From NCBI RefSeq assembly GCF_001651805.1, contig NZ_CP015839.1, positions 4,402,001 to 4,466,000 of the forward strand: a stretch of 64,000 nt of DNA, read 5' to 3'. The stretch comes from Marinobacterium aestuarii (GTDB lineage: Bacteria > Pseudomonadota > Gammaproteobacteria > Pseudomonadales > Balneatricaceae). Position numbers and translations under genes: made by a program. The notes under the pieces are model-generated. The model had not been told where the DNA came from. It did not search any database and saw only the letters and a program-made list of their open reading frames with translations. Shown piece after piece: positions 1,938 to 44,288 of the stretch. Within the stretch, counting starts at the first letter, position 1; each line of letters starts with the position of its first letter.

Positions 1938-2256
1938 GTTCAGAACCTCGGAAAGTGGCACTTTTTGTGATTATGGGATGCTGGTTTTGTGGCCCGGCAG
2001 ACACGGCCAGAGCAACTGAATATGCGCCTGCCAAACCCGCATCTAACCCAGAGCATAAAATCAATTTGATCAGAAATCAAAATTCTGTTCATTTTATTTC
2101 GTGGAATGCTCAAAATCACATGCCTGAGCCTTCTCGCAGGCACAGCGGGGCCGGGATGCTTTTTGCCATCAAAACGTGCTTAGGACTGGAAAGGTGTAGC
2201 GGGAATGCACTTGAGGCCCTCAGTGTCTGAAGGCCCTGCGCACTCGGGAGAAAGCG
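1938..2256. other. Intergenic region with promoter and operator for the amidohydrolase operon
   Basis: This 319-base stretch has no gene. Its centre (about 2050-2100) is AT-rich and holds the dyad at 2067-2091. The rest, nearer the TetR gene end, shows nothing recognisable. Confidence 0.6.
2067..2091. promoter_or_regulatory. Operator candidate, dyad 1 (site H)
   Basis: TGATCA-N13-TGTTCA. This is one of the most symmetrical members of the ACA-N13-TGT family seen in eight promoter regions here. The inner flanks extend the symmetry (TGATCAGAA and TTCTGTTCA). It lies 130 bases upstream of the amidohydrolase start. Confidence 0.5.
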
Positions 2257-2988
2257 TCAGCGACGCGAGCGGGAGGAGGAACCTGCAGTCAGAGCAACGA
2301 TCAACTTTTTGACCCTCACCGGCAAAAGGCGCCGGCTACCGCCTTCCGGCACGAGCAATTCGCTCAACACATAGCGGATAATCATTTCACAAATCAATTC
2401 ACGATCGAGCTTGGCGCCAAGACGGGCATCCCACTCGTCGAAAACGATGTCGAGCTGATCCTGAAAGCGCACAATTGAATCGTGAAAGATGCGTCTAAAG
2501 AAGCTCAGTGCATAATCGGGCGCCACCACCAGAAGGCGCCGGGCTCGGCTTTGCTCAAGATAAGTGTCCAGATAGGCGATCAATGCGTTCAGTCGCGCCT
2601 CAGGATCGGTGATATCACCGAGAACCTCTGTCAGAGCGCTGTGGAAGCTGTCGCGCTTGTGCCGGGAAAAGGTATCCAGCAAGTCGTCCTGAGAAGAGAA
2701 ATAACGGTAAAAAGTTCCGCGTGAAACCCCGGCCACCTGGCAAAGGTCAAGGATCGAAATGCGGTCAGCTCCGGAGCGCAGCACCACCTCTTCAGTGGCC
2801 GCCAGAATATTGGCAATGGTCTCTTCCGAGCGCCGATTCGGTTTCACCTGACCGCCGTTCCTCGATGTCACAGCATTTTTTTTCGCGACTTTCTTGCCGG
2901 CTGGCAGCGCCTTTACGGCCCTGGATGACTTTTTGCTGACAGGCGCAGCAGCCCCGGTTTCTTCAGGTCTGGCGGCGGATTTTGGCAT
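2257..2988 (-). CDS. TetR-family transcriptional regulator with basic N-terminal tail
   Basis: This is a TetR-type repressor of about 243 residues. The helix-turn-helix spans roughly residues 77-99 and includes VAGVSRGTFYRYF. The ligand-binding C-terminal half has no recognisable subfamily signature. The first 50 residues, before the DNA-binding domain, are unusually rich in Lys, Ala and Arg, giving a basic tail that most TetR proteins lack. I chose ATG at 2988; a TTG three codons earlier is possible. The gene is divergent from the acyl-CoA ligase, so the 178-base spacer may carry its operator. It is a candidate for control of the island, but the target is not known. Confidence 0.9.
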   Translation of the reverse strand: MPKSAARPEETGAAAPVSKKSSRAVKALPAGKKVAKKNAVTSRNGGQVKPNRRSEETIANILAATEEVVLRSGADRISILDLCQVAGVSRGTFYRYFSSQDDLLDTFSRHKRDSFHSALTEVLGDITDPEARLNALIAYLDTYLEQSRARRLLVVAPDYALSFFRRIFHDSIVRFQDQLDIVFDEWDARLGAKLDRELICEMIIRYVLSELLVPEGGSRRLLPVRVKKLIVALTAGSSSRSRR

Positions 2989-3085
2989 CGATTGCAATCC
3001 CTAGAGTTAAATAAAAAACAGACTATCACATGACTTGAGGCTATCTTTCACTTTCTGTTCAACTTTTTCCTAAAGACATTCGACT

Positions 3086-3102
3086 AATTTCTATTTAGAA
3101 TT
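3086..3102. promoter_or_regulatory. Inverted repeat in the tetR/acyl-CoA ligase divergent promoter
   Basis: TTCTA-TT-TAGAA at 3089-3100 inside an AT-rich stretch. It is a possible operator for the adjacent TetR protein. Its half-site spacing differs by two bases from the ATTCT-N6-AGAAT dyads elsewhere in the window. Confidence 0.3.
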
Positions 3103-3166
3103 GCATTCCAACATCAAAATAATATTCGCATCCCATTGATGGGAGAGCCACCAAAGGAGGCAAGTC

Positions 3167-4798
3167 ATGAATGGTATCGGGAATCCGGAGACATGGGCAG
3201 TCGGTGAAAATGACACGGTTATCGCAGCATTAGATCGTGCAGTAGCGCGGCATCCAGAGAGAGTCCTGCTGGACTTTAGCGGAAAACTGTACACATATTC
3301 AGATGTTGACTCACTATCGACCAAAATGGCGCACTCCCTGGCCAGCCTCGGGGTTAAGCCGAACCATACTGTGCTAACCATGCTGGACAACAACATCGAT
3401 GCTGTCATCTGCTGGCTGGCAATCAACAAGCTATGCGCCGTCAGCGTGCCGATAAACACTGCGCTCAAAGGCGAGTTCCTGCGCCACCAGATCGCCGATA
3501 CAGGGACGCACCTAGTCATATGCGAGGCAGGCTACCTGACACGCATGACCCCCCTCGCCGATCAGCTCAGTGAAGTGACTCAGATACTTCACCGCGGCGC
3601 ACTGGAGCAGCCCGCTGCTTGCAGCATTCCGATCGCCGCCCTCGATGCCTACCGCGGCACCGATGCAACGCCTCTCTCCAGCAAGCCGCAGCCGTCGGAC
3701 CTCGCCTGCCTGATCTACACATCCGGAACGACCGGGCCTTCAAAAGGCTGCATGATTAGCTACAACTTCATGTGTAATCTGGCTCGCCTGCAGCTTCGTG
3801 CTGGCCCGGCCACCGAAGACGACGTAACCATCACGCCGCTGCCCCTGTTTCACATGAATGCCCTGTGCGTCAGCATCATCGCCAGCATTATGGTGGGCGC
3901 TCGAGCAGCGATACTGCCGCGCTTCTCGGTGTCCGGCTTCTGGCCGGAGGTCGAACGATCCGGCGCCACCATTGCCTCTATTCTCGGCGGCATGGGTGGC
4001 CTTCTGGCCCAGGCGCCGGACAACGATGCCATGAAACGCTGCGTCGGCCAGATCCACACCGCCCGAGGCAACCCCTATACCGAGGAAACCAAGAAGATCT
4101 GGCGCGAGCGTTTCGGTACGCCGCTGGTTGGCGGAAATGGCTACGGCCTCACCGAAGCCTGTGTCATAACATCCCTGGCAGCGGGTGAGTACGCCGCGCC
4201 AGGCTCGTCAGGCAAGCGCATTCCTGACTTCGACGTGCGCATCATCGATGACAACGACCATGAGCTGCCGGCTAACACGCCCGGGGAAATCGTAGTTCGC
4301 CCGCTGCGCCCTGACATCATGTTCCAGGGCTACTGGAAGCGCCCGCAAGACACAATGAAACTGATGCGCAACATGTGGTTCCACACCGGCGATATCGGCA
4401 AGTTCGATGATGAGGGCTTCTTCTACTTTGTCGACCGCAAGAAGGACTACCTGCGCAGACGCGGCGAAAATATTTCCAGCTTCGAGATGGAAGCAGCCTT
4501 CGCTGTGCACCCCGCCCTGGCCGAAGTTGCGGTGCATGCAGTGCCCTCGGACAAAGGCGAAGACGATGTCAAGGTCACAGCCATACTGCACGATGGAGCA
4601 GAGCTCGCGCCGGACGAGCTGTTCCATTGGGCGACCGACTCGGTGCCTTACTATGCCCTGCCCCGATACATCGAGTTCCGTACCAGCCTGCCAAAAAATC
4701 CCCAGGGCCGCATATTGAAATACCAGTTGCGCGATGAAGGAAAAACCGCCGACACCTGGGACCTGGAAGATACTGACATCAAGGTGGCGAAGACCTAA
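3167..4798 (+). CDS. AMP-forming acyl-CoA synthetase (carboxylate-CoA ligase)
   Basis: This 543-residue protein is a full-length ANL-superfamily ligase. The phosphate-binding loop LIYTSGTTGPSKG is at residues 182-194. The adenine motif GYGLTEA is near 325, WFHTGDIG near 405, and the hinge DRKKDYLRRRGEN near 425. The C-terminal catalytic Lys lies in NPQGRILKYQL. It activates a carboxylic acid with ATP and CoA. Overall it looks closest to the crotonobetaine/carnitine-CoA ligase (CaiC-like) branch, but the substrate is unknown. In a diterpenoid-type pathway it would correspond in role to DitJ, activating the resin-acid carboxyl or a degradation product. A strong ribosome site, AAAGGAGG, precedes the ATG. 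A perfect hairpin follows the gene. Confidence 0.93.
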   Translation: MNGIGNPETWAVGENDTVIAALDRAVARHPERVLLDFSGKLYTYSDVDSLSTKMAHSLASLGVKPNHTVLTMLDNNIDAVICWLAINKLCAVSVPINTALKGEFLRHQIADTGTHLVICEAGYLTRMTPLADQLSEVTQILHRGALEQPAACSIPIAALDAYRGTDATPLSSKPQPSDLACLIYTSGTTGPSKGCMISYNFMCNLARLQLRAGPATEDDVTITPLPLFHMNALCVSIIASIMVGARAAILPRFSVSGFWPEVERSGATIASILGGMGGLLAQAPDNDAMKRCVGQIHTARGNPYTEETKKIWRERFGTPLVGGNGYGLTEACVITSLAAGEYAAPGSSGKRIPDFDVRIIDDNDHELPANTPGEIVVRPLRPDIMFQGYWKRPQDTMKLMRNMWFHTGDIGKFDDEGFFYFVDRKKDYLRRRGENISSFEMEAAFAVHPALAEVAVHAVPSDKGEDDVKVTAILHDGAELAPDELFHWATDSVPYYALPRYIEFRTSLPKNPQGRILKYQLRDEGKTADTWDLEDTDIKVAKT

Positions 4799-4871
4799 GA
4801 CAGTATCCATGCCGCGAGCACGCAGCTCGCGGCAAATGTGATGCTGGATCCGTAAGGACGCTGGATACGCA

Positions 4872-4903
4872 AAAAGGGTTGCACGCTAGCGTGCAACCCT
4901 TTT
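4872..4903. terminator. Bidirectional intrinsic terminator
   Basis: Perfect 16-base inverted repeat with arms AAAAGGGTTGCACGCT and AGCGTGCAACCCTTTT. A-runs and T-runs flank both sides. It lies between the convergent acyl-CoA ligase and SDR genes. Confidence 0.9.
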
Positions 4904-4942
4904 CTGTTCTGCTTGGTTCTACCCGCGCACTACAACTGTGGA

Positions 4943-5743
4943 TCAGTACTCCCTGGCAGGAACGTCTGCAGGACGCGAGTTATAACCCGGCAGATGCAAG
5001 CCACCGTCCACATGGATGGTTTCTCCGGTCACGAAACGCGACATCTCGGACGCAAGGAACACCACCACCGGCCCGATATCCTCTTCCGGCTCACCACAAC
5101 GCCCCAGGGGCCGCAACGCCGCCGAGTGCTCAGCGAACCCGGGATTCTCCGCGGCCAGCTTGTGAAAGGTCGCGCCCATGGCTGTCGGGGCTATAGCGTT
5201 TACCCGGATATTGAAGCGCCCCCACTCTGACGCGGCGCTGCGCGTTAAACCCACCACGGCCGACTTGGCAGCGTTATAGTCGCCATGCAACCAGGCCCCC
5301 ACCTCGGTATCGATCGAATAGAAGTTGATGATCTTGCCACCACCGCGCGCCCGCATGTGCGGCAATGCTGCCTTCATCGTCCACCAGGCCGCCCAGACAG
5401 TGGAGTTCAGGGTTTTCTCGAGCATGGCATCGGTCTTGTCCTCCAGCAGTACGTTCGGTGTCGGCGCGAAGGCATTGTTAACCAGAATATCCAAACCACC
5501 AAACTGATCGACCGCCGCCTGGATCGCCGCATCTATATCACGCTTGCTGGAAACGTCGGTTTTTATGAACAGCGCCCGGGCACCCAGTGCCTGTAGCTCT
5601 GCGGCCACAGCCCTGCCACTTTCCACATCAAGTTCGGCAACGACCACGGCCGCCCCCGCCTTGGCGAAGCTAAGTGCTACGCCCCGTCCAATACCACCAC
5701 CGGCGCCCGTGATCAGCGCCACCTGCTCGTTCAGCAGTCCCAT
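4943..5743 (-). CDS. Short-chain dehydrogenase/reductase (SDR)
   Basis: This is a classical SDR of 266 residues. The nucleotide-binding TGAGGGIGRG is at residues 13-22, the structural NNA near 88-90, and the catalytic pair in YNAAK. It interconverts an alcohol and a ketone using NAD(P). A good ribosome site, AGAGGAAG, precedes the ATG. A dyad-1 site sits only 24 bases upstream of the start, so it is probably in the same regulon as ditA1 and ditA3. The gene is divergent from a DUF2889 gene. The exact substrate is unknown; a hydroxy-terpenoid or a cis-diol are possibilities from context. Confidence 0.9.
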   Translation of the reverse strand: MGLLNEQVALITGAGGGIGRGVALSFAKAGAAVVVAELDVESGRAVAAELQALGARALFIKTDVSSKRDIDAAIQAAVDQFGGLDILVNNAFAPTPNVLLEDKTDAMLEKTLNSTVWAAWWTMKAALPHMRARGGGKIINFYSIDTEVGAWLHGDYNAAKSAVVGLTRSAASEWGRFNIRVNAIAPTAMGATFHKLAAENPGFAEHSAALRPLGRCGEPEEDIGPVVVFLASEMSRFVTGETIHVDGGLHLPGYNSRPADVPAREY

Positions 5744-5766
5744 AGGGAACTTCCTCTTGTTTTATG

Positions 5767-5791
5767 TATACAGTTTCTGTTTTTATGTTTA
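5767..5791. promoter_or_regulatory. Operator candidate, dyad 1 (site G)
   Basis: TATACA-N13-TGTTTA. It lies in the spacer between the SDR at 5743 and the DUF2889 gene at 5849, 24 and 58 bases from the two start codons. It is a degenerate copy with the same 13-base spacing. Confidence 0.4.
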
Positions 5792-5848
5792 AATACACTC
5801 TAGCCTAAGGTTCCAGGTATGCATAGAAAACTGTAAGGGTAACTAGAA

Positions 5849-6610
5849 ATGAGCACCTTTCACCGCCGAGTGGACATCACCTCGTTACAGCATCAGACTG
5901 CAGGTACAGTGCGCGCCGCGCTGGAAGACAACTTCCACCATTTTCGTGTCTGGGTACGCCACTATGATCGAGTGCTCACCGCCATCGGCGGCGAAGCCTT
6001 GCGCTACCCCTACTCCGCCTGCCCAGAGGCCACCGATCAGCTGCAACAGCTGGTCGGCATGCCACTTGATGCAATTGCCCATTCGGTAACACGACAGGTC
6101 GATGCACAACACCAATGCACTCACCTGCTCGATCTGGCGGGGCTGGCTATCGCAAATGCCGCCAGGCAGACAACCCGGCGCCGGTACGACATCCAGATTC
6201 CTCAGCGGGTCGACGGACACACCAGCGCCAGGTTGCTGCGAGATGGCTGCGAGCTGCTCACCTGGGAGCTGAAGGATTCAGTCGTCCAGGCCCCCGATCC
6301 CTATTGCAACATCAACTTGCGCCAGGGCATGGCGCGATGGGCACTGGACACTCTGCCTCATGAAGAGGCGGAAGCCGCATTGTTGCTGCGACGCTGCACG
6401 CTCATATCCCTGGGTCTGGAGAAAAATCTCGACGCCCAGGTACACGCGTCCAGCACCGGACTCTGCTACAGCCAACAGCCCGATCGGGCCGCCATCGCAG
6501 CAAGAATAATAGGGTCAACCTGGAACTTCAGTGAGCGGCAGCCAACACTCTGTGCCGACGACCAGCTCTGGCTCAGCCAGTTGACCCTGAGCCCTGCCGG
6601 TTCCGCCTGA
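5849..6610 (+). CDS. DUF2889 family protein of unknown function
   Basis: I recognise this 253-residue protein as a DUF2889 member. It has no signal peptide, no membrane segment and no classical cofactor motif. Conserved-looking stretches include RVWVRHYDRVLTAIGGEALR near the start and CPEATDQLQQL. It is convergent with ditA2 and divergent from an SDR whose promoter carries the dyad-1 site. Such genes recur in aromatic and terpenoid catabolic islands (from memory), but no reaction is established. The start is supported by AAGGG about 10 bases upstream. A strong hairpin overlaps its stop codon. Confidence 0.8.
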   Translation: MSTFHRRVDITSLQHQTAGTVRAALEDNFHHFRVWVRHYDRVLTAIGGEALRYPYSACPEATDQLQQLVGMPLDAIAHSVTRQVDAQHQCTHLLDLAGLAIANAARQTTRRRYDIQIPQRVDGHTSARLLRDGCELLTWELKDSVVQAPDPYCNINLRQGMARWALDTLPHEEAEAALLLRRCTLISLGLEKNLDAQVHASSTGLCYSQQPDRAAIAARIIGSTWNFSERQPTLCADDQLWLSQLTLSPAGSA

Positions 6611-6625
6611 AGGCGGCTCCGGCAG
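6594..6625. terminator. Strong GC hairpin between convergent genes, probable bidirectional terminator
   Basis: Arms CTGCCGG-tt-CCGCCT and AGGCGG-ct-CCGGCAG are separated by only GA. The hairpin overlaps the DUF2889 stop codon and lies just before the ditA2 stop. No T-run follows it, so termination is likely but not certain. Confidence 0.45.
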
Positions 6626-6644
6626 TGCGCGCAGGCCGTTCCTG

Positions 6645-7220
6645 TTAAAGGAATACCGCCAGGTTAGGTGTGCCCAATACGGCCTGGTCGATGATGACCT
6701 CCCGCCGCGCCAACTTGAAGCCGTCCTCGCAGACCCGCAACAGATCCCGGCGCTCGCCACTGATGATGTCGACGTGGTGATCCTTGAAGCGGTTGCGGGT
6801 CAGCAGCAGATAGCTGGTCACCACAAACTCGTCAGCCTTGGCGGTTTCCTCGACAAAGACATTGGTCACAAGACGACGCGTGCGCGACGGCGGATCCTCG
6901 GCCCAGGCGCTCTTGCCAGACAGGCGAAGTATGCGCCCCATGATTGAGCGATAGTCGTCATGATAATGCTGCACGCTACGCACGATACTGGCCGACTGCT
7001 CCGCCTGCACACGGGTATGCCGCAGCGGTACTGTATAAACCAGATCAGTGGCCAGACGCTCGCTCCATTCCTGTAGCCGAATCTGATCCAGCAGCGTGGC
7101 TTCCTCATACAGAAAAGTCACGACCTGGTTGTAGATATCCGAACCCACGGGGACACGCTTGATGCCAACCGGTGAACCCGGCTGGATCTGCGTGGAATCT
7201 CGTTCTTGAACTTGAGCCAT
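6645..7220 (-). CDS. ditA2: Ring-hydroxylating dioxygenase, beta subunit (DitA2-like)
   Basis: This 191-residue protein has the size and SnoaL/NTF2-like cone fold signatures of small subunits of Rieske dioxygenases, such as FLYEEATLLDQIRLQEW near residue 35 and a C-terminal half ending in QAVLGTPNLAVFL. It has no metal centre. It packs against the alpha subunit to form an alpha3beta3 enzyme. It follows the alpha gene by 56 bases in the same orientation and has its own ribosome site (GGGAG). The Dit name is an assignment by context and family, and substrate specificity is not proven. Confidence 0.88.
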   Translation of the reverse strand: MAQVQERDSTQIQPGSPVGIKRVPVGSDIYNQVVTFLYEEATLLDQIRLQEWSERLATDLVYTVPLRHTRVQAEQSASIVRSVQHYHDDYRSIMGRILRLSGKSAWAEDPPSRTRRLVTNVFVEETAKADEFVVTSYLLLTRNRFKDHHVDIISGERRDLLRVCEDGFKLARREVIIDQAVLGTPNLAVFL

Positions 7221-7276
7221 AAGAAAACTCCCTGAAGCTAATTGTTATGACAGAGAAACAAGGGGGGAATGAGCGA

Positions 7277-8674
7277 TCAATCTTCCGCCATCATCAGCTC
7301 ATGCCAGTACAACCACCAGTGCCACTGGGTATCGTCTTTGGTGAAGCCTTCGTTGACAATACCTGGTCCCGGCCAACCCTCAGGTGCACCGGTTTCAAAG
7401 CAGGCTTGATATTTCAAGGTGCTCTTACGCCCCATAGCGCCCTTGGCGGACAAAGTCATGTGCGGCCAGGTATCGGAGTCGTCCTGCTCAACCATACCCG
7501 AGGTGCCAAACAACTGGATGGTCTGCTTGAGCATCTTCTCGCGCAGTTCGGCCGGCGCATCCTTCTCGGCAAATATCCAGTTAACGAATTCCAGCTTGTC
7601 CGGCCCATGCGGCACATAGGCGTGCAGCGTCATGGAACCGACCACCGAACCATCGGGCTGCGGGATATAGACAAAACCAAAGAGTATGTTGGGGAACATA
7701 CCGCCAACCTGCGGTGGCATGGTGGTCAATACCTGTAGTTGCTCATCACTAAGATTGCGTGCCAGCTGCTCGACCATTTCACCGGTCATGCCGGCCGGAG
7801 GCAGGGCATCGAGCTTTTCCTGGACCGACAGTTCGGCCGGGTCAAGCCCGGTGAGACGCTTGATCTTGCGGGCCAGGTCGATGCAACGTAACGCATGACC
7901 ATGGGGCGAGCTGATTTCCACACCGATCATTTCCGGACTCAGGTCAGTCCCCTCGCCCTCGCCCTCGCCTTTCTTGGCATAGTTGCCCACTTCGCCGAGC
8001 CAGCGGTGCAAGGTCAGTGTGTGGAAGCCGTCGGCAGCCGACTGCTCTCCGGCAGTTTTCCAGTTGGCATTGACAATAAAGCGCTGCGGCGGACCGAGCA
8101 CTTCCATGCCCTTGTCGCTGCGACAGAACAGCATGTCGTAATACCATTTGGCGTCACCGAGGAACTCCTCGAAGGATGGCCCCTCGATATTCCAGGTGGC
8201 GAAAATAAGACCTCCGTAGAGCGTCGTGCGCGCCTTTCGCAGACCCAGTTCTTCCTTGGGCGTCATCTTGCCGTGCATGCACTCGCGCTCGATTGGCGAA
8301 CCGATGAAGTCGCCATTGGTACGGAAGGCCCAGCCGTGATAGATGCACTTGTGGATCTGAGTGTTGCCGCAATCGGCAGTGCTAATACGCATGCCGCGGT
8401 GCGGGCAGACGTTGAGGGATACGAAGACTTCGCCCTCTTTGCCTCGGGCGACGATGACCGAGTCCGAGCCCAGATCGCGCACGATGAAGTCCCCTGAATT
8501 GGGGATCTCCGACTCATGTCCGAGCAGAATCCAGGACTTGCCGAAGATTTTTTCCATCTCCAGCTCATAGATTTCCCGATCGGACAGCACACGCATCTGC
8601 ACTTCTCGGGTCGAGGGGTAAATCAAATCCGAAACCTTGGTTCCGTCGGACAACACAGGGCTTTTTGTTAGCAT
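7277..8674 (-). CDS. ditA1: Rieske ring-hydroxylating dioxygenase, alpha subunit (DitA1-like)
   Basis: This is the catalytic subunit, 465 residues. The Rieske [2Fe-2S] ligands are in CPHRG (C90, H92) and CIYHGW (C110, H113). The mononuclear iron site is in ADGFHTLTLH (D215, H218, H223), with a distal carboxylate probably in EQDDSDTW near residue 410. It adds O2 across an aromatic bond to give a cis-dihydrodiol. In the dit pathway the homologous enzyme hydroxylates 7-oxodehydroabietic acid at C11 and C12. Electrons would come from the ferredoxin encoded 9 kb away, as in known dit clusters. AGGAG precedes the ATG. A dyad-1 operator lies 49 bases upstream. The dioxygenase family is secure; the substrate is inferred. 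Confidence 0.9.
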   Translation of the reverse strand: MLTKSPVLSDGTKVSDLIYPSTREVQMRVLSDREIYELEMEKIFGKSWILLGHESEIPNSGDFIVRDLGSDSVIVARGKEGEVFVSLNVCPHRGMRISTADCGNTQIHKCIYHGWAFRTNGDFIGSPIERECMHGKMTPKEELGLRKARTTLYGGLIFATWNIEGPSFEEFLGDAKWYYDMLFCRSDKGMEVLGPPQRFIVNANWKTAGEQSAADGFHTLTLHRWLGEVGNYAKKGEGEGEGTDLSPEMIGVEISSPHGHALRCIDLARKIKRLTGLDPAELSVQEKLDALPPAGMTGEMVEQLARNLSDEQLQVLTTMPPQVGGMFPNILFGFVYIPQPDGSVVGSMTLHAYVPHGPDKLEFVNWIFAEKDAPAELREKMLKQTIQLFGTSGMVEQDDSDTWPHMTLSAKGAMGRKSTLKYQACFETGAPEGWPGPGIVNEGFTKDDTQWHWWLYWHELMMAED

Positions 8675-8722
8675 AATTGTCTCCTGTTAATGGCACAGAG
8701 TGTATGAAGCCAGGGTAAATAT

Positions 8723-8747
8723 AAGACACTTTTACCAATAATGTATA
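8723..8747. promoter_or_regulatory. Operator candidate, dyad 1 (site A) in the ditA1 promoter
   Basis: AAGACA-N13-TGTATA, containing the strict form ACACTTTT-N8-TGTA shared with sites B, C and D. On the gene strand a -10-like TATATT follows within a few bases, so the site would overlap the promoter. Confidence 0.6.
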
Positions 8748-10644: not shown

Positions 10645-10669
10645 ATGACACTTTTCAAAAATATGTACA
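10645..10669. promoter_or_regulatory. Operator candidate, dyad 1 (site B) in a divergent promoter
   Basis: ATGACA-N13-TGTACA, including strict ACACTTTT-N8-TGTA. It is 68 bases from the SDR start on one side and 48 bases from the DUF35 gene start on the other, so one site may serve both directions. Confidence 0.6.
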
Positions 10670-12305: not shown

Positions 12306-12314
12306 GCTGAGCCT

Positions 12315-13112
12315 TCAGGACAGCACTGTCGCCACTTCAGCGCAGAACTCGATAAGCGCGGCCCCGAGCTCTTCAATTCCCTCGGGGTCTCGCTGCCCGC
12401 GAAACATGACTGCCGACACCGTGAAGTCGATGGAACCGGAGGCGGAGTAAACCGGGGCAGCCACGGCCAGAATACCGATCGAGAAATGCCCATCGTCCAT
12501 CGCCCAGCCACGCTCGGCGGCCAGGCGAACCTCCTCGCGATAGGCTGTGAAGCTCAGCGGCCGCGCCCAGCGAATGCGCTCGAAGTTCGCCTGAATATCC
12601 GGATCGTCGAGATTTACCTGGGTCGCGAACAATCTGCCACTGGCGCCCATCAGCATCGGCAAGCGCTGGCCTTCAGCCATATCAATACGCACATCCGCAG
12701 GGCTGGCGGCAGAACTGACGATAACAATTCGGTCAGGTCCCACCCGTCGCCACAGCGTAACCGTCACCCGCTGCTGGGCCGCCAGGTTTTGCAACAGCGG
12801 CTTGGCCAGTTGCACGCGCTGGCCCTGGGTCACCAACTGCTCGACCAGACGGGCAAGCCCTGCACCCGCCGAATAACGCTTGGACATGGGATTGAAATCG
12901 ACGACATCCTCCACCACCAGTGTGCGCAGAATATTGAAGCAGGTACTCGGATTGATCGACAACTGCCGGGCAATGTCGACCGAACGCTCCGGCGAACCAA
13001 CCTGGCTCAGGTGACGGAGAATGCGCACCGCATTGACGACCGGCTTCACCGTGACGACGGATGCGGCCTTGTTGTTATCATTGGGAGCGTCGACATCTGT
13101 GCTGTCCATAGG
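12315..13112 (-). CDS. ditR: IclR-family transcriptional regulator (DitR-like)
   Basis: This is an IclR protein of about 265 residues. The winged helix lies near residues 20-80 and includes ILRHLSQ and SIDIARQLSINPSTCFNILR-like sequence. The effector-binding domain follows, with LPMLMGASGRLFAT near residue 160. In the dit cluster the IclR protein DitR activates ditA3 when inducer is present. Here the gene lies between the thiolase gene and the ditA3 operon. ATG at 13112 is preferred; a TTG at 13142 would add ten residues. A 16-base palindrome, ATTCT-N6-AGAAT, lies 37 bases upstream and recurs at two other promoters, suggesting autoregulation. Confidence 0.85.
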   Translation of the reverse strand, partial: PMDSTDVDAPNDNNKAASVVTVKPVVNAVRILRHLSQVGSPERSVDIARQLSINPSTCFNILRTLVVEDVVDFNPMSKRYSAGAGLARLVEQLVTQGQRVQLAKPLLQNLAAQQRVTVTLWRRVGPDRIVIVSSAASPADVRIDMAEGQRLPMLMGASGRLFATQVNLDDPDIQANFERIRWARPLSFTAYREEVRLAAERGWAMDDGHFSIGILAVAAPVYSASGSIDFTVSAVMFRGQRDPEGIEELGAALIEFCAEVATVLS

Positions 13113-13148
13113 AGTTTCTCGGGTAATGTGGCTTGAAGACAAAGCATC

Positions 13149-17591: not shown

Positions 17592-17828
17592 TCAGGCTTT
17601 GCCAGTCTCAGGTGTGATGTCTTCGAGCCAGATCGCCTCGGCGGGACAGGCTGCCGCACCTTCTCGAGCCTCTTCCTCAAGCTCGGGCGGGACTATATTG
17701 TCGTCCAGGTAGACCAAACCATCAGCATCCAGCTTGTAAATGCTGGGGCAGATGGCGGCACACAAGCCGTAACCACAGCACCGGCTGCGGTCGGCCACTA
17801 CTTGAAATCGCGCTTTCTCGGAACTCAT
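17592..17828 (-). CDS. ditA3: Small [3Fe-4S]/[4Fe-4S]-type ferredoxin (DitA3-like)
   Basis: A 78-residue ferredoxin with CCGYGLCAAICP (C17, C18, C23, C27) and a distal CP at C60. The pattern is C-x5-C-xn-CP, in which the residue at the third cluster position varies; here it is Tyr20. C27 offers a possible extra ligand, so three- or four-iron clusters are both conceivable. The dioxygenase of the dit cluster is unusual in using such a ferredoxin rather than a Rieske one. ATG at 17828 follows AAGGAG. It heads the SDR-ditC-FAH-MFS unit, and a strict dyad-1 site lies 37 bases upstream. It could alternatively serve the P450. Confidence 0.87.
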   Translation of the reverse strand: MSSEKARFQVVADRSRCCGYGLCAAICPSIYKLDADGLVYLDDNIVPPELEEEAREGAAACPAEAIWLEDITPETGKA

Positions 17829-17864
17829 ATTATTCTCCTTATCAGGTACCACCAAACAAGATAA

Positions 17865-17889
17865 TGAACACTTTTAACTCATTTGTAAA
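17865..17889. promoter_or_regulatory. Operator candidate, dyad 1 (site C) in the ditA3 promoter
   Basis: TGAACA-N13-TGTAAA with strict ACACTTTT-N8-TGTA. It is 37 bases upstream of the ditA3 start. Confidence 0.6.
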
Positions 17890-18028: not shown

Positions 18029-18053
18029 TGAACATTTTTTAAAATTATGATCA
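18029..18053. promoter_or_regulatory. Operator candidate, dyad 1 (site E)
   Basis: TGAACA-N13-TGATCA, extended to TATGAACAT and ATGATCATA arms (8 of 9 symmetrical). It is 201 bases upstream of ditA3 and 292 bases upstream of the MFS start. Confidence 0.5.
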
Positions 18054-18278: not shown

Positions 18279-18344
18279 CTGCGCAACCAAGAGATAATGC
18301 CCAGCTGCTCGGCAAAAATAAGACCCATAACAGGTGCCTGCCCG

Positions 18345-36392: not shown

Positions 36393-36426
36393 GTCTGCTC
36401 ACTCATTAAAGATTCGTGGCGGCGAG

Positions 36427-37581: not shown

Positions 37582-37676
37582 TATTTTTATCCTCAACCGC
37601 CCAGAGGTTGGGGCCCGCTCAGCGCGTTACCGTGCGAGAGCCCACACCACTGTTTGGAGAACGTTAGCGTCGGTAA

Positions 37677-37703
37677 GCGACACCTGTCTTTGCCAGGTGT
37701 CGC
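37677..37703. other. Perfect hairpin between DUF1329 and YCF48 genes
   Basis: GCGACACCTG-TCTTTGC-CAGGTGTCGC, a ten-base stem lying inside the DUF1302-to-SDR unit. No T-run follows. It could protect the upstream mRNA or cause partial termination so that the two outer-membrane proteins are made in excess. Confidence 0.5.
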
Positions 37704-37712
37704 CTCAACGCA

Positions 37713-39077
37713 TTAGCGCTGGGTTATCCGGGAGACTATTGCTTCAGGCTTCATCTCACGCTCGGAACGTGGCTCTGCTTCAAACTTGTAGCCGCCTTTC
37801 AAGCCGTCGTTGATCAGGGCGTACATGCCCTTGTTGAAGTCATAGATAACGTTCTTGACGTTGTAAGGGATGTCCTTGTCGTAGAGCTGCACACCGCTGA
37901 GGAACATGGCGCGGTACAGATCGTCATTCTTGTCCCAGGCGTCATACAAGCCTACACCAAAGGTGTCTTCATCGAGGTAGTAGGTACGCTTGCTGTAAAC
38001 GTGGCGCATACCCGGCTTAAGAGTTGCCTCAACCACCCATACACGGTGCAGTTCCCAACGCTCACACTCTGGATTGGCGTGATTCGCGCTAAACTGCTCT
38101 TCCTGTTTGCAATCGAAATAGAACTTGTAGGCGTTATAGGGGATATACATCTCCTTGCGGCCCACCAGCTTGTAGTCGAAGCGTTCCTGGCTGCCGGAGA
38201 ACATCTGCAGCTCGTCGAACAGGGTTACACCACCCTGACTGGCCACCGGGGTATCAAAGGCAAACTCCGGCGCCAATTTGATGCGTCGCTGACCCGGCGT
38301 ATAGCTCCAGGCACGTCGCGGCTTGGCCAGCGGATCCAGGTAATCGGCCAGTACTATTACTTCACCAGCCCGTCGCGCCGGATACATGTTCAGGGAATAG
38401 ACCCGTGAATACATCAGCGGATCGCGATCCTCCTGATCGACCTGGTAATAGGGCATTTCCTCGAAAGTTGCCTGCTCAGCGCTCTTGGTAACCTGGCCGT
38501 TAGTGTCGATGACCCAGCTATTGGAGGAGGCCGTCGTCGCAAAGCCACCACCGATTTTGTATCGCAGCTGCTGGTTCCAGATCAGCTCATTACCGGTGGT
38601 GGGTATCGGGAATGGAAGGCCGCCACGACAGGCTGGATCAACCGCCAGGCCGTCCTTCTGGATATTGCATCCAGTGGCATTACGCACCGTTGCATCCACC
38701 ACGGTCTGAGGGTAGGCCGCTGTGCGGTGGCTGGGATAGATGTCCAGGTAGTATTCAGGATACTTCCTGAGCAGGGTTTTCTGCCCCTCGCTCAGCTTGT
38801 CTGCGTACTGATCGACGTTTTGCGAATTGATCCTGAACAGCGCTTTCTCATCTTTGTAGGGATCGATCCAAAAACCGCTGTCTGGCTTGAACCCGGCGGG
38901 AGCCTCACGCAGCCCCCCCTCATAGGCAGGGATAGTACCTTCGGCATTGCCGGCCTGGATGGCACCCCAGGGAGTGAGAGACTTGCCGAGTTTAGCCGCC
39001 TCTTCCGGGCTGACGGCCGCCAGCGCGCACGCCGACAAACCACTCAGGATGATGCTAAATGCGAGTTGGAATTTCAT
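37713..39077 (-). CDS. DUF1329 family protein (outer-membrane lipoprotein-carrier-like)
   Basis: This 454-residue secreted protein has signal FSIILSGLSACALAA. LSAC could be a lipobox, but ALA-A is also a type I cleavage site. The body has the DUF1329 pattern with ARRAGEVIVLADYLDP and RHVYSKRTYYLDEDTFG near the C-terminus. The fold is related to LolA/LolB carriers, suggesting transfer of a hydrophobic molecule between membranes. The ATG at 39077 starts the signal peptide; a longer frame upstream is not credible. Confidence 0.9.
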   Translation of the reverse strand: MKFQLAFSIILSGLSACALAAVSPEEAAKLGKSLTPWGAIQAGNAEGTIPAYEGGLREAPAGFKPDSGFWIDPYKDEKALFRINSQNVDQYADKLSEGQKTLLRKYPEYYLDIYPSHRTAAYPQTVVDATVRNATGCNIQKDGLAVDPACRGGLPFPIPTTGNELIWNQQLRYKIGGGFATTASSNSWVIDTNGQVTKSAEQATFEEMPYYQVDQEDRDPLMYSRVYSLNMYPARRAGEVIVLADYLDPLAKPRRAWSYTPGQRRIKLAPEFAFDTPVASQGGVTLFDELQMFSGSQERFDYKLVGRKEMYIPYNAYKFYFDCKQEEQFSANHANPECERWELHRVWVVEATLKPGMRHVYSKRTYYLDEDTFGVGLYDAWDKNDDLYRAMFLSGVQLYDKDIPYNVKNVIYDFNKGMYALINDGLKGGYKFEAEPRSEREMKPEAIVSRITQR

Positions 39078-39102
39078 GTCTGTTCCCCCGGTCTTGTAAT
39101 TA

Positions 39103-40764
39103 TTAAAAGGAGCTTTTGTAGGTGAAGGCCAGCCAGCCGCGGTCAGTTCCGCCGACGTTGCCGTTACCGTTGACCATGGGATCACCGTTAACGTTGGTGG
39201 AGTTCTTTTCCTGTGCGGAGCTATCGGCATAGCGCAGGCTGAACTCATGCTGCGAGCGGTACGTCATCTTGGCGCCAACCGACCAGGAGAGCGCGCCTTC
39301 GCTGCCACCACCCGCACTGGCGGCGTTGCCGCTCAGGCCGTAGCTGACCGTCAGCGGGACATCCAGAGACCAGGAGGGGAAAATTTCAACGTACTGCGGG
39401 GTGTAGTTCAGCGCGATGCCGTAGTAATCCTTGGTCGAGCAGCCATCGGACTTGTCGCCAGCCCCGCCTGTTCGGACATCCTTGCAACCCGCGAAGCCCT
39501 CACCCTTGTACAATTCCGAATGGGAGGTAACCTTGTTCAGGTGGCTATAGGCGAACTCGGCCACCAGCGTCGAGTTGTCGGCCAGCCAGTAACGTGGAAC
39601 GCCGTAAATAACGTTGGCCACGAAGTGTATGGTGTCACCACGCGGACCTTCATCGTCCACCAGACTAACGCCTGTGGCGTTGAGTGCTCCGCCCTTGCGG
39701 TAGGACAGGTCGGCACCCACCGATGCTGCACCAACGGCGGTTGAGATACTCACGCCATACTGTTTGACGTCACGCGGGTAGACCAGGCGGTATTCACCAG
39801 TACCCATATCGACCTGCGGCGCCAGCCATGCCTGGTAGTCATCGAATTCACGGTAGTAGCCGCCGACCGTGGCTTCGATGGCCTCGATATCCAGCTTGCC
39901 CATCACCCCCCAGTTCTGACCATCGCGGCCGCGTTTGGACTCGGCATGGCTGAGGTTGAAACCAGGTGCTGCCGGCAAGCGGTCAGGGCCCTCGAAGAAC
40001 GGATCTGCGGCGCCAAAATAGGTGCCTCCGTAGGGGAAACGGGTGTTGTCCCACTCGTACATGTATTGCGCGGCAATCGACAGGTTATCAGTGACCTGAG
40101 CCTTGCCCGAGATCTGACCAATCGGCAAAAACACTTCCTTGGTCTCGATACCCGGGCTGGTTACGGCTTTCACCGCATCCAGAGGCGCCTGCGAGTAGGA
40201 CATCGCATGCGCACCGATCAGCAATCCCTCACCCCAGAACAGCGCATGGCGGCCGACTTTCAGGTTTACAGGCGTCGCACCTATATTGAAATTGGTCCAG
40301 ACAAAGGCATCGAGGATCTCACCCGACGGGCCCTTGACGTAGCGCTCAACCTCGCCGCTATAGCGATCATTGTTATAGCTGGTGTCCATCCCCGCAACGC
40401 TGCTACTGACCGAAGTGTCGTCGTAGGCGTTGTCGTACCAGCCGGCAGCGCTGACGCGCCCGCCAAAATGGTGCTTGTAAGCCACGTCAAATTCGGAGAA
40501 CACATCCAGACGATTTGTCACGATATCGCCCTGATCGAACTTGCCGTCGGACTCGTCGAAATTCGGGTTGTTGAGGATATTCTGATCCTGATCCTCAATG
40601 CGCCAGCCCAGGTTGTAGCGCGCGGTATTGTCCCAGCGCATGCGGATATCGGGGTTGCCGACATCGATCTGCATCGCCGTGGCGCTGCCTGCACAGCTCA
40701 TGATCATAAGCGCCAGGACACTGCGAGGCATCGAGACGCGATCAAGATTACTCATCATCTTCAT
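39103..40764 (-). CDS. DUF1302 family outer-membrane beta-barrel protein
   Basis: This 553-residue protein has a type I signal peptide ending SATA and then a long beta-strand pattern with alternating aromatic residues, ending in TYKSSF with the terminal Phe typical of barrels. DUF1302 proteins are large porin-like barrels found with DUF1329. This one likely admits the hydrophobic growth substrate. AGGAG precedes ATG 40764. It is the first gene of the unit and has a dyad-2 site 190 bases upstream. Confidence 0.9.
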   Translation of the reverse strand: MKMMSNLDRVSMPRSVLALMIMSCAGSATAMQIDVGNPDIRMRWDNTARYNLGWRIEDQDQNILNNPNFDESDGKFDQGDIVTNRLDVFSEFDVAYKHHFGGRVSAAGWYDNAYDDTSVSSSVAGMDTSYNNDRYSGEVERYVKGPSGEILDAFVWTNFNIGATPVNLKVGRHALFWGEGLLIGAHAMSYSQAPLDAVKAVTSPGIETKEVFLPIGQISGKAQVTDNLSIAAQYMYEWDNTRFPYGGTYFGAADPFFEGPDRLPAAPGFNLSHAESKRGRDGQNWGVMGKLDIEAIEATVGGYYREFDDYQAWLAPQVDMGTGEYRLVYPRDVKQYGVSISTAVGAASVGADLSYRKGGALNATGVSLVDDEGPRGDTIHFVANVIYGVPRYWLADNSTLVAEFAYSHLNKVTSHSELYKGEGFAGCKDVRTGGAGDKSDGCSTKDYYGIALNYTPQYVEIFPSWSLDVPLTVSYGLSGNAASAGGGSEGALSWSVGAKMTYRSQHEFSLRYADSSAQEKNSTNVNGDPMVNGNGNVGGTDRGWLAFTYKSSF

Positions 40765-40953
40765 ATCTGCTCCTTTTGCTCTTTTTGTTCTTTGTTCTTG
40801 TTTTAACAACTTAAGACTAGCTATTTGTGCCTTCTCCACCTTCTGAACCCCACAGAGCGGCAGAAATAACTGAACAAATACAACATAACCGTTCCACTTA
40901 TCCTAAGACATACAATAGCGGACAAAAACACATAATTCCACATAAAGATTTCA

Positions 40954-40969
40954 ATTCTTTATATAGAAT
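40954..40969. promoter_or_regulatory. Operator candidate, dyad 2, upstream of DUF1302
   Basis: ATTCT-TTATAT-AGAAT, the same 16-base palindrome as in front of the IclR gene and the MFS-ferredoxin operon. Confidence 0.5.
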
Positions 40970-41073
40970 ATTATGCCCCGCTAATCTCAAACAGACCTGA
41001 TTTTTGGAGTGGAATTGGCGGATCCTGCTGCCCGGCGCGTGTGCCTCACACCCAGGCGCCCAGACCACAAATA

Positions 41074-41098
41074 AAAACATATATTTAAATTATGTTCA
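41074..41098. promoter_or_regulatory. Operator candidate, dyad 1 (site F)
   Basis: AAAACA-N13-TGTTCA. Read toward the SDR gene at 41222 it has the same orientation as sites A to D relative to their genes. It is 124 bases upstream of the start. Confidence 0.45.
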
Positions 41099-41221
41099 TA
41101 ATCAACTTTCTTCTGTATCCCGAATTGGCTTTAATAAGATTAGCAGCCAAGCGGTTGTGCACCACAAAAAGGCTAGCCGTGCGCCTCTCAAAGGCCCCAC
41201 GTCCATTCAACAGGAGGATTC

Positions 41222-42064
41222 ATGAATATTGATCTCAGCGGCAAACGCGTGATCGTGACCGGTGCTTCTCGCGGCATAGGCCTGGCAATCGCCCAAGCCT
41301 TTGCTACTGAAGGCGCATGTGTTGCTATCTGCGCGCGAACAGAAGGCGCCGTGGCCAAGGCAGGCCAGGCGCTGCAAGCCACTGCCCAGGCCGTTATCGC
41401 CCGTGCGGTCGATGTTACTGACAGCCCAGCCGTCCAGGCATTCGTCAAGGAAGTGGCAGACAGCTGGGGCGGCGTGGACGTTCTGGTCAATAATGCCGGC
41501 CAGGGCAAAGGCGGTAATCTGGATACCCTCAGCCCGGAAGACATCCTCGAGCATGCGAACATCCTGCAGATGGGACATTTCCGCTTTGCTCAGGCGGTAG
41601 TGCCTTACATGCGCAAACAGCAATGGGGGCGGATCATCGAGATCAACGCCCTGGCCGGTACCATTCCGACCCCGGAAGGCATACCGTCGGTGATTAATCG
41701 CGCCGCCTGCGTGGCCCTGTCACGCTCTCTGGGCATGTCCCTGGCCAAGGACAACATACTGGTTAACAGTCTGAACATGGGCTGGATCGACACCGGACAG
41801 TGGGACCGCCACTACAGGGAGATGGGGCCAGGCGTAAGCCGCGAAGAGTTCGACGCCATGGTCATGAAAGTGGTACCCATTGGACGCTACGGCAAGCCCG
41901 AAGACGTAGCAGGCATGGCCCTGTTCCTGGCCAGCGAATATGCCAGTTTCATCAGCGCCGCCTCAATTGATATTGCCGGTGGCATGGGCGGGCAGATCGC
42001 CTACTTCCCAACGCTGAAACGCGACTTCGCCGCAGCGATGCGCGAACGCAACAGCAATACCTAG
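41222..42064 (+). CDS. SDR-family protein lacking the usual catalytic Tyr/Lys
   Basis: This protein has 280 residues. The cofactor motif TGASRGIGLA is intact and NNAG is present. Where YxxxK is expected the sequence is IPSVINRAACVAL, that is Ser and Arg. It may be a divergent dehydrogenase or have another role, as in some hydratase-like SDR subgroups. CAGGAGG precedes ATG. It is followed 90 bases later by a glutathione peroxidase gene. Confidence 0.85.
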   Translation: MNIDLSGKRVIVTGASRGIGLAIAQAFATEGACVAICARTEGAVAKAGQALQATAQAVIARAVDVTDSPAVQAFVKEVADSWGGVDVLVNNAGQGKGGNLDTLSPEDILEHANILQMGHFRFAQAVVPYMRKQQWGRIIEINALAGTIPTPEGIPSVINRAACVALSRSLGMSLAKDNILVNSLNMGWIDTGQWDRHYREMGPGVSREEFDAMVMKVVPIGRYGKPEDVAGMALFLASEYASFISAASIDIAGGMGGQIAYFPTLKRDFAAAMRERNSNT

Positions 42065-42154
42065 ACATTCAACCTGTGCTCCCGCTAATGCAGAAAAACG
42101 CCAGGAGTGCCGGATTGTGCAAAGCCAGCCGTCCCATAAATCAGGATTAACGCC

Positions 42155-42706
42155 ATGACTAAGTCGCTATACGACATACCGCTTAAAACCATCGAAGGCT
42201 CTCCCCTTACGCTTGAGAAGTTCAAGGGCAAGGTACTGCTGATTGTCAACGTCGCCTCGAAGTGCGGCCTTACGCCGCAATATGCCGGCCTTGAAACCCT
42301 GTACGATGAAATGCGCGTCCAGGGCTTCGAAGTGCTGGGTTTCCCGGCAAACGACTTCCAGGGTCAGGAACCCGGTAGCGACGAAGAAATTCAGGCGTTC
42401 TGCGACCTCAACTACAAGGTGCAATTTCCACTGTTCGCCAAGATTGCGGTAACCGGTGTCGAGCAACATCCGCTCTACAGCGCGCTGACTGCAGCCTGTC
42501 CGACGGCGACCGGTGAGGGGCCCATGCGTGAACGCCTGAAAGGCTATGGCATCGAAGCGGAAAAACCACCGGCCGTGCAGTGGAACTTCGAGAAATTTCT
42601 GATCAGCCGCGGTGGCAGGGTCGTCGGGCGCTTCGCGCCGGATATCACAGCACAGGACCCAGGTCTGCGCCAGGCGATAGAGGCACAGCTAGGCACCAGC
42701 GCTTAG
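42155..42706 (+). CDS. Glutathione peroxidase (Cys type)
   Basis: This peroxidase has 183 residues. The peroxidatic Cys is in NVASKCGLTP at residue 36, with the Gln in FPANDFQGQEPG and the Trp in VQWNFEKFL completing the tetrad. It reduces peroxides using glutathione or thioredoxin in the cytoplasm. Oxygenase-rich pathways generate peroxide, so its place here makes sense. It may be co-transcribed with the SDR upstream. Confidence 0.93.
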   Translation: MTKSLYDIPLKTIEGSPLTLEKFKGKVLLIVNVASKCGLTPQYAGLETLYDEMRVQGFEVLGFPANDFQGQEPGSDEEIQAFCDLNYKVQFPLFAKIAVTGVEQHPLYSALTAACPTATGEGPMRERLKGYGIEAEKPPAVQWNFEKFLISRGGRVVGRFAPDITAQDPGLRQAIEAQLGTSA

Positions 42707-43050
42707 CATGCTCGGCCGCCGTCCCTTTGGTTACAACGGCCTGTGGCACTCTGATTAGAGTGCCCGGGCCGACTGTAGCGCGACGCCTAGGGATATGCCG
42801 GTCATGATCAGGCAGGGGCTGAGCACCTGAACGACCTCAGCTGGCTACACCAAGCCGCGCCAGGCACAACCTGCTTTTGTCGCCAGAATGCGCCCGGCGG
42901 TGACCAGTGTTTGCTGGCCAAGCGGGTGACTCAGTAGTCAGCTTGCAGCAAGCTGCAGCTGCATCACAGCCTTTCACCAATGCAGCAACAACTAAACATA
43001 CCCAGCCGTTACCGCCCGTCAGGGTATCCGCTTAAAAAGGGAAACCAGGA
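42707..43050. other. Gene-free stretch between convergent genes
   Basis: 344 bases with the hairpin at 42737-42771 and a small inverted repeat AGCTTG-CAG-CAAGCT at 42940-42954. I see no gene. Confidence 0.6.
42737..42771. terminator. Hairpin downstream of the glutathione peroxidase gene
   Basis: Inner stem GGCACTCT-GATT-AGAGTGCC with outer CGGCC and GGCCG pairing. The hairpin is strong but has no T-run. Confidence 0.4.
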
Positions 43051-43977
43051 TCAGCCGCGTATGCGTGCGGTGATCTTGGCATGGGGGCCGGCCTGCTGTG
43101 CAGCCCAGGCCTCGGCGGCCTGATCCAGACTGTAGTCGACGTAATCGACCTGGATCTGCTGTTCCCTGGCGATCCGCAACAGGCGCAGCCAGATTTGCTC
43201 GCGGTCCGCTGGCGGACGCTGGCCGGTGCCGATGCACGACAGAGAACGAAACAGCAGATCGGCAATATCCAGGTTGAGCTGACGCCCGGCCCCGGTACCA
43301 ATGGTCATAATCCGTGCGCCCCAGTTGGTCGCTTTAAGCGAGGTCAGCATGGGCTGGCCGCAAACCAGATCGAGCACCACATCAAAGCCGCCGCCGGATG
43401 CATCCTTGAGTGCCGCCACGTCATCGGCTCCGCCCAGTGTCACCACCTCATCGGCGATGCCTCGGGATTTCAGCCGCAGCAGAGCGTCCTCGGAGCGCGC
43501 CGCCCCCACCACCTTACCGGCGCCCATGCCACGCGCCAACTGCAGGGCAATTTGTCCGAGGGTTCCGGTGGCACCGAGGACCAGTACCTTCTCACCCTTC
43601 TGAATCTCGGCCTGTTCCAGCGGCACTATGGCCCCAGTGGCGGCGATGCCCATGCTGATGGCGGTCCTGTCATCGACGTCATCCGGCAGATCCCAAACCT
43701 CCGCAGACGGCACTACAGTGCGCTCGGCCCAGGCGCCAAAGGGCAACAGTGAGCGTTCGCCAAAATATACACGACGGCCATCAGGCGCACGACCAACACC
43801 TTCGCCACGGATCACGCAAGGGTACTCCACGCCCAGGCGATAGGCACCCAGCACATCCCATCCCCCCAGGCCGGCGGTATCAACCTCGATCAACACCGAG
43901 CCTTCCTGCGGCTCAGGTTCACGGAATTCACCCACTACGGGCGGAGCGTTACGTTCGGTAATAACTGCAGCACGCAT
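43051..43977 (-). CDS. Quinone oxidoreductase-like medium-chain dehydrogenase
   Basis: This zinc-independent MDR protein has 308 residues. The NADPH motif is VLGATGTLGQIALQ near residue 135. The structural and catalytic zinc Cys residues of alcohol dehydrogenases are absent. It probably reduces an enone or quinone. A strict dyad-1 site is 53 bases upstream, linking it to the catabolic regulon. GGAGG precedes ATG. Confidence 0.9.
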   Translation of the reverse strand: MRAAVITERNAPPVVGEFREPEPQEGSVLIEVDTAGLGGWDVLGAYRLGVEYPCVIRGEGVGRAPDGRRVYFGERSLLPFGAWAERTVVPSAEVWDLPDDVDDRTAISMGIAATGAIVPLEQAEIQKGEKVLVLGATGTLGQIALQLARGMGAGKVVGAARSEDALLRLKSRGIADEVVTLGGADDVAALKDASGGGFDVVLDLVCGQPMLTSLKATNWGARIMTIGTGAGRQLNLDIADLLFRSLSCIGTGQRPPADREQIWLRLLRIAREQQIQVDYVDYSLDQAAEAWAAQQAGPHAKITARIRG

Positions 43978-44288
43978 ATTGCCTCCATTACAAATTCTTG
44001 TTGTTGGCGCTTATTGCTCGGATACAATATGAACACTTTTAAGTATTTTGTATATATTTTTAATCCAATTGCAGTGTCTACACCCGGTTGAACAGCGGAT
44101 CGCTCTCCAGGCCCAGCCACAACGGCGGCCAGTGTCAGTTTGGGATTACACAAGCTGCTAGATGGGGAATAACCGCAAGCTGGATGCAATCCAGCTGAAC
44201 ATCATGCACGGGGCTGGAGACTTCTGCGGGCAGATCACTGCAGGTTTGAGCCGGAATAGTCGCTAAAAAGTGGCCGCGGGCGGCAACC
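43978..44288. other. Promoter region of the quinone oxidoreductase-like gene
   Basis: 311 bases. Site D lies at 44030-44054 within AT-rich DNA. The remainder up to folM shows nothing recognisable. This appears to be the right-hand end of the catabolic island. Confidence 0.6.
44030..44054. promoter_or_regulatory. Operator candidate, dyad 1 (site D)
   Basis: TGAACA-N13-TGTATA with strict ACACTTTT-N8-TGTA. On the gene strand a -10-like CATATT follows immediately. Confidence 0.6.

Follow-up and report, generated by a model that had tools for sequence, protein, structure and literature searches.

A conserved ACA-N13-TGT dyad in the dit promoters of Marinobacterium aestuarii and related bacteria, a candidate operator for a cluster-encoded TetR regulator

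The dit-like cluster and its dyad sites

The window analyzed here, a 64,000-nucleotide stretch of the Marinobacterium aestuarii genome (contig NZ_CP015839.1, positions 4,402,001 to 4,466,000; single-contig genome of 5.19 Mb), carries in its first 45 kb a dit-like (abietane diterpenoid) cluster in which a 25-bp dyad, ACA-N13-TGT, recurs in front of scattered catabolic units. The cluster encodes a CoA ligase, the alpha and beta subunits of a ring-hydroxylating dioxygenase, FAH hydrolases, SDRs, DUF35 and thiolase proteins, an IclR regulator, an extradiol dioxygenase, a ferredoxin, permeases, a P450, and two TetR regulators. One of the latter, TetR-2257 (2257..2997, minus strand; TetR_N PF00440, 38.3 bits against a cutoff of 24), is divergent from the CoA ligase gene (3167..4798, plus strand; AMP-binding). 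The IclR-type regulator (12315..13142, minus strand; IclR_C and HTH_IclR above cutoff) is the DitR candidate, which by its family and position we take to be the ortholog of DitR of Pseudomonas abietaniphila. The dioxygenase alpha subunit is encoded by ditA1 (7277..8674, minus strand; Rieske and Ring_hydroxyl_A), and the nearest DitA1 relative among the named loci (best 80 of 120 relatives) is that of Pseudomonas borbori (95%). The ferredoxin gene ditA3 (17592..17855, minus strand) is an open reading frame (ORF) named from gene order, with 73 to 93% identical matches at the equal position in the Pseudomonas and Halopseudomonas loci shown; its start codon is probably internal to the ORF. The name DitR is the one used for the dit cluster in PMC12628601.

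The first-pass annotation had listed eight copies of the dyad, and the 25-mers that it quoted are present at all eight positions. The dyad is exact at six of them (5767, 8723, 10645, 17865, 41074, and 44030), whereas 2067 reads TCA-N13-TGT and 18029 reads ACA-N13-TGA, so that "eight copies" overstated the case. Four sites conform exactly, as had been claimed, to the strict motif ACACTTTT-N8-TGTA: 8723..8747 (minus strand) in the ditA1 core promoter; 10645..10669, between an SDR gene (SDR9876, minus strand) and the DUF35-thiolase genes (plus strand); 17865..17889 (minus strand) in the ditA3 core promoter; and 44030..44054 (minus strand) in the promoter of a quinone-oxidoreductase-like gene (QOR). 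Read on the gene strand, this motif is TACA-N8-AAAAGTGT, in identical orientation for ditA1, the SDR, ditA3, and QOR, and the fuller form of the dyad is approximately TGWACA-N13-TGTYYA. Mechanical ORF calling places the start of the SDR at a TTG that is overlapped by the site at 10645; the true start is probably internal. The other two exact sites lie at 5767..5791, between SDR4943 (4943-5743, minus strand) and a DUF2889 gene (plus strand), and at 41074..41098, between a DUF1302 gene (minus strand) and SDR41222 (plus strand). The degenerate ones lie at 18029..18053 (plus strand), upstream of the MFS permease gene at 18297 (MFS18297), and at 2067..2091 (minus strand), 106 bp upstream of the Amidohydro_2 gene (861..1961, minus strand).

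Frequency, conservation, and position of the dyad

The loose pattern TGAACA-N13-TGTTCA, with up to three mismatches, shows no enrichment here (24 occurrences in the window against 16.8 +/- 4.0 expected, with 7 of 100 shuffles reaching 24), and a claim resting on this pattern alone would therefore fail. The strict motif occurs five times in the whole 5.19-Mb genome, four of these inside one 35-kb stretch of the window, and its reversed control not at all; an even spread predicts 0.034 matches per 35-kb stretch and a probability of about 5e-8 for at least four, the stretch having been chosen post hoc. The fifth match, inside a 429-amino-acid ORF (L001, 754-2043), was set aside as a chance match. 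The intergenic DNA of the cluster amounts to 5,219 bases when SDR9876 and ditA3 are given manually placed internal starts; in it, ACA-Nk-TGT is found six times at k=13 versus a mean of 0.76 times over the 17 other spacings compared. The wider form TRNACA-N13-TGTNYA has 10 places in the genome versus 2 for its control, and 3 of the 10 are in or near the cluster. One of these three is an exact dyad 4.2 kb to the left of the window (L192, 13825-13849; genome position 4397824), upstream of an ORF for a 450-amino-acid amidohydrolase-like protein, and this outlying gene is adjoined by a second P450 gene, the product of which is 61% identical to the P450 of the window. The regulon may extend past the window.

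The conservation of the dyad in other genomes is the decisive support that it is real. Among the loci of DitA1 relatives in named genomes (best 80 of 120), TACA-N8-AAAAGTGT with at most one mismatch is present in 69 of 80 and absent from 11. Most Pseudomonas and Stutzerimonas loci have it at two or all three of ditA1, the SDR, and ditA3; those of Halopseudomonas, Paraburkholderia, Polaromonas, Aromatoleum, and Massilia have it at fewer promoters or at different ones. Because an iterated weight matrix derived from these loci drifted toward mere AT-rich sequence, spacing statistics took its place. Promoters, including those of the window and of extra loci, were taken with per-gene identity cutoffs and de-duplicated to less than 25% shared 8-mers, a step that lowers the relatedness between rows and leaves some of it. 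Upstream of the dit genes of Gamma- and Betaproteobacteria, ACA-Nk-TGT shows a single clear peak, at k=13. This spacing is found at 32/32 ditA3, 25/26 DUF35, 19/21 SDR9876, 35/41 ditA1, 28/37 SDR4943, and 26/35 DUF2889 promoters (DUF2889 being the divergent neighbor of SDR4943). Counts were also obtained for MFS18297 (9/18, several of these dyads being the adjacent ditA3 site), P450 (5/14), the amidohydrolase (11/39), TetR-2257 (9/39), IclR (8/36), QOR (2/8), the CoA ligase (7/35), SDR41222 (1/6), DUF1302 (1/2), FAH8849 (4/31), FdR (1/9), x32842 (0/8), and x25230 (0/9). Other spacings occur on average in 0 to 0.14 of the promoters, with k=11 the runner-up for some genes (14/41 for ditA1 and 11/32 for ditA3).

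The individual sites share in this conservation to different degrees. Those at 5767, 8723, 10645, and 17865 are supported across genomes, whereas outside the window 44030 has a dyad in one of seven orthologous promoters and 41074 in none of five SDR41222 promoters, the single positive being the window's own. The two degenerate sites have exact counterparts in some other genomes: dyads lie 133 to 135 bp upstream of the MFS18297 ortholog in L068, L070, L072, and L073, and the 11 amidohydrolase promoters with the spacing include only two Pseudomonas rows, both off-consensus (L045 and L049). Counting ACA-N13-TGT outside matched genes, at most 300 bp from a gene start and in at least 60% AT, at least one dyad-type promoter is present in 47 of the 48 genomes examined. 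The exception, G117 (L196-L198), has three DitA1-like genes (54 to 58%), no dyad promoter, no DitR at E 1e-5, and a TetR-2257 relative of 31%; its DitA1-like genes probably belong to another pathway. The palindrome is clearest outside Pseudomonas, for example as TGAACAGAGTCATTGATTCTGTTCA adjoining ditR of Pelomonas. Among the betaproteobacterial loci L132-L142, L144, and L145, many have a second dyad, often near-perfect, past the 3' end of ditR.

At ditA1, the arrangement TGTACA, about 17 bases, then TATATT recurs, together with a TGT within the spacer, in many Pseudomonas and as far away as Azohydromonas, including many Burkholderiales with otherwise differing spacers, and is missing at some loci (e.g., L078, L079, L084, L099, L108, L112, and L115). 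The first-pass annotation had described a -10-like hexamer after the right arm, and this is visible in the four strict sites. Across orthologous promoters, the right-arm side outscores the opposite flank for ditA1 (4.23 versus 3.71) and ditA3 (4.34 versus 3.62), but not for the two SDR groups (3.82 versus 4.04 for SDR4943; 2.32 versus 3.89 for SDR9876, where the neighboring gene is divergent and the start codon uncertain). Promoter overlap is thus supported for two of four gene groups, since the -10-like score exceeds that of the opposite flank at ditA1 and ditA3 alone. Altogether, the genome scan, the orthologous promoters, and the spacing peak support well the proposal of a regulon operator overlapping the promoters of several dit units.

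Candidate regulators and a second palindrome

The regulator had been left open between TetR-30439, TetR-2257, and the IclR protein at 12315, and the distribution of these proteins now favors TetR-2257. From the 80 loci, 44 dit genomes were used to search for DitR and TetR-2257, and 39 to search for TetR-30439. TetR-30439, tried as the common regulator, was matched in 29 of 39 genomes and had no match at E 1e-35 in the other 10, so that, unless missed, it cannot serve the dyads of those ten; this role is contradicted. Of the 44 genomes, 42 have an ortholog of TetR-2257 (E 1e-30) and 41 one of DitR (E 1e-50). The three in which DitR is missing at E 1e-50 are Pseudomaricurvus (L108), Spongiibacter (L112), and Aestuariicella (L115), the best remaining protein being a 31% relative, and G219 and G409, of one genus, have none at E 1e-5. 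All five of these genomes have TetR-2257, and each has dyads at at least four genes, with sites upstream of ditA3, SDR4943, the amidohydrolase, and FAH8849. Spongiibacter has a single IclR protein, with no match to DitR at E 1e-4, and Aestuariicella a distant one (31% over 219 residues). Thus, the dyad is not confined to genomes with DitR.

TetR-2257 itself goes with the dyad in nearly all cases. Among 390 genomes of the order, it was matched (E 1e-25) in three, the same three that have a DitA1 of at least 70% (DitA1 matches at E 1e-120 being found in four), and no TetR-2257 relative was found outside dit clusters in this sample. Among 369 genomes of the class, two distant IclR proteins (28 and 36%) had neither motif convincingly nearby, an uninformative result. 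The SRGTFYRY stretch in the recognition helix of TetR-2257 is invariant in a 16-sequence alignment and among the relatives listed; because it is kept, the operator should be common to the TetR-2257 relatives, with the dyad as the motif they share. The dyad spacing is found in 9 of 39 TetR-2257 promoters (mean of other spacings, 0.06), and Spongiibacter, Aestuariicella, Aromatoleum, and three Massilia/Telluria genomes each have a TetR-2257 copy with a dyad in its intergenic region (L165, L167, L168, L170, L172, and L174). The structural model of TetR-2257 has ten helices in an all-helical TetR family fold (mean pLDDT 73.7, with low confidence in the first 50 residues), and TetR-family chains top its Foldseek list; this predicted fold is uninformative on the operator. 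Three tandem TetR-2257 paralogs were observed in a Burkholderiaceae bin and in Pseudoduganella (L176 and L180).

The region between TetR-2257 and the CoA ligase holds another element, a TAGAAT-N3-ATTCTA palindrome (palindrome B) at 3096..3110 (plus strand; one mismatch), 71 bp upstream of the CoA ligase, which we propose as the DitR box. In 36 de-duplicated rows, ATTCTA is kept in this region, mostly with AGAAT three bases ahead. When up to two mismatches are allowed, 29 of 35 CoA-ligase promoters contain palindrome B, against 0.5 in shuffles; among ditA3 promoters the count is 0 of 32 and among ditA1 promoters 1 of 41. The dyad replaces it in 4 of the 35 CoA-ligase promoters (L168, L170, L174, and L194), L110 has neither motif, and L094 has palindrome B with three mismatches. 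Palindrome B also stands upstream of ditR in P. borbori, two Stutzerimonas, Aromatoleum/Thauera, and the Massilia group, and next to the distant IclR gene of Aestuariicella. At one mismatch or fewer, 31 of the 42 DitR genomes have it, as does one of the six that lack DitR, where it adjoins the distant IclR. Moreover, it has a GAA-N5-TTC core in common with the Escherichia coli IclR box TGGAAATNATTTCCA given in PMC8222616. Palindrome B fits DitR better than the dyad does. The IclR protein at 12315 is therefore less likely as the binder of the dyad, which persists without its ortholog.

A model of dit regulation and its rivals

We propose, as the rather probable reading, that the dyad is the operator of TetR-2257, set in the core promoter, and that DitR acts through TAGAAT-N3-ATTCTA. 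This would be the simplest scheme; the dyad, most likely bound by a TetR-type repressor encoded in the cluster, would then be the principal on/off control of resin-acid degradation. At ditA1 and ditA3, the left arm overlaps the -35 and the right arm abuts the -10, so that access of RNA polymerase would be blocked once a TetR dimer is bound. Release of TetR-2257 would come from a ligand formed as resin acids are degraded, which may be a CoA thioester produced by the CoA ligase encoded divergently, and would open jointly ditA1A2, the SDR/DUF35-thiolase pair, the ditA3 unit (probably with ditR, judging by gene order), the SDR at 4943, and the outlying units. DitR would act at the CoA-ligase promoter.

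Several observations weigh against this assignment, and some of them speak for the converse one, in which DitR binds both arms of the dyad, perhaps as a tetramer, and activates, TetR-2257 binding TAGAAT-N3-ATTCTA at the CoA ligase. DitR of P. abietaniphila, studied by Martin and Mohn, is said to be an inducer-dependent activator of ditA3, and it is the dyad, not the second box, that ditA3 promoters carry (32/32). Of 19 betaproteobacterial ditR loci, 18 (L132-L149) have a dyad between ditR and ditA3, L150 being the exception. Neither the window nor the majority of Pseudomonas and Burkholderiales rows shows a convincing dyad between TetR-2257 and the CoA ligase, a region that holds the second box in most genomes, so that the usual autoregulation of a TetR protein is not seen. 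Two dyad genomes with DitR have no TetR-2257 match at E 1e-30, one of them (L084) with a partial TetR-2257 gene at a contig end and the other (L086) a metagenome bin in which the contig stops behind ditA2. Of 36 ditR promoters left after de-duplication, only 4 have palindrome B with at most two mismatches (0.3 in shuffles), and, as given above, not all genomes with DitR have it. The DitR-less genomes are mostly marine Gammaproteobacteria and thus perhaps stand for few independent events. In PMC8222616, IclR proteins are described as often using paired sites 18 to 22 bases apart, close to the 19 between the dyad arms, and the half-site TGAACA resembles the IclR consensus TGRAACA. However, the dyad as a whole matches neither GKTYCRYW3-4RYGRAMC nor TGRAACAN1-2TGTTYCA, the consensus forms given there, its arms being 13 bases apart instead of 1 or 2. 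Five genomes that lack a DitR ortholog, one of them with a lone, nonmatching IclR, also have dyads in front of at least four dit genes, and palindrome B is missing in five of six DitR-less genomes. On balance, we consider DitR an unlikely binder of the dyad.

A regulator from outside the cluster is more improbable still: the lack of a clear dyad at the promoter of TetR-2257 itself in Pseudomonas would suit it, but in Gamma- and Betaproteobacteria the motif goes where the cluster goes, and its strict form is absent from six genomes of the same genus, the dit-gene status of which is not established. We give very little weight to a conserved sigma-70 promoter without any operator (-35 TGTACA, spacer of 17, -10 TATATT). 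The arms do coincide with the -35 and abut the -10 at ditA1 and ditA3; the TGT in the spacer and the ACACTTTT-type letters are nonetheless conserved, the dyad is present at SDR4943 where the flanking -10 is no better than on the other side, and near-perfect TGAACA-N13-TGTTCA palindromes occur near ditR in Burkholderiales.

Assigning the dyad to TetR-2257 and palindrome B to DitR also allows a two-step cascade, which we advance tentatively, as a possibility we do not expect to hold in full: DitR would activate the CoA ligase through palindrome B, the CoA thioester would free TetR-2257 from the dyad, the other dit promoters would then open, and the operators would be exchangeable. The activation of ditA3 ascribed to DitR would then conceivably be indirect, via the CoA ligase and its product, which would fit the statement that DitR is reportedly not strictly needed for growth. 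If so, Massilia, Aromatoleum, and a small marine genus would have swapped the CoA-ligase box for the dyad, giving a single-regulator loop.

The assignment of the dyad to TetR-2257 and of palindrome B to DitR has a parallel in PaaR of Burkholderia cenocepacia, a TetR-type repressor of the phenylacetate genes. According to PMC2770484, its inverted repeats lie between the -10 and -35 of several pathway operons, the best scores of the authors' genome scan fall at pathway promoters, and its role was established by mutants and operator mutation. Like the proposed TetR-2257 operator, that of PaaR belongs to a TetR-type regulator of a catabolic pathway and is set in core promoters; the PaaR repeat has 15 bp (PMC2770484) against the 25-bp N13 dyad and the role we infer here for TetR-2257. 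Among the weaker Foldseek matches of TetR-2257 is KstR (TM-score 0.40), which has the TetR fold in common with it and differs from it in sequence (19% identity). KstR represses cholesterol degradation, a polycyclic terpenoid regulon, through an operator that is a shorter palindrome. No published DitR box was found in the open-licence literature, the box proposed here being TAGAAT-N3-ATTCTA and not the dyad, and no operator for abietane diterpenoid catabolism was found there either. A paper on the control of aromatic metabolism in Betaproteobacteria (PMC6449761) makes no mention of abietanes or other diterpenoids, DitR, PaaR, or TetR. The window also encodes, outside the cluster, a 1135-amino-acid protein (47414-50821) with zinc ribbon, cyclase, AAA, and TPR domains.

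The regulation of abietane diterpenoid catabolism has hardly been studied, and to our knowledge DitR is its sole tested regulator. The conserved operator defines a regulon that links outlying permease, amidohydrolase, oxidoreductase, and P450 genes to the pathway, and it points to a candidate TetR sensor for resin acids. Our findings further suggest that the same cluster is wired differently between lineages.

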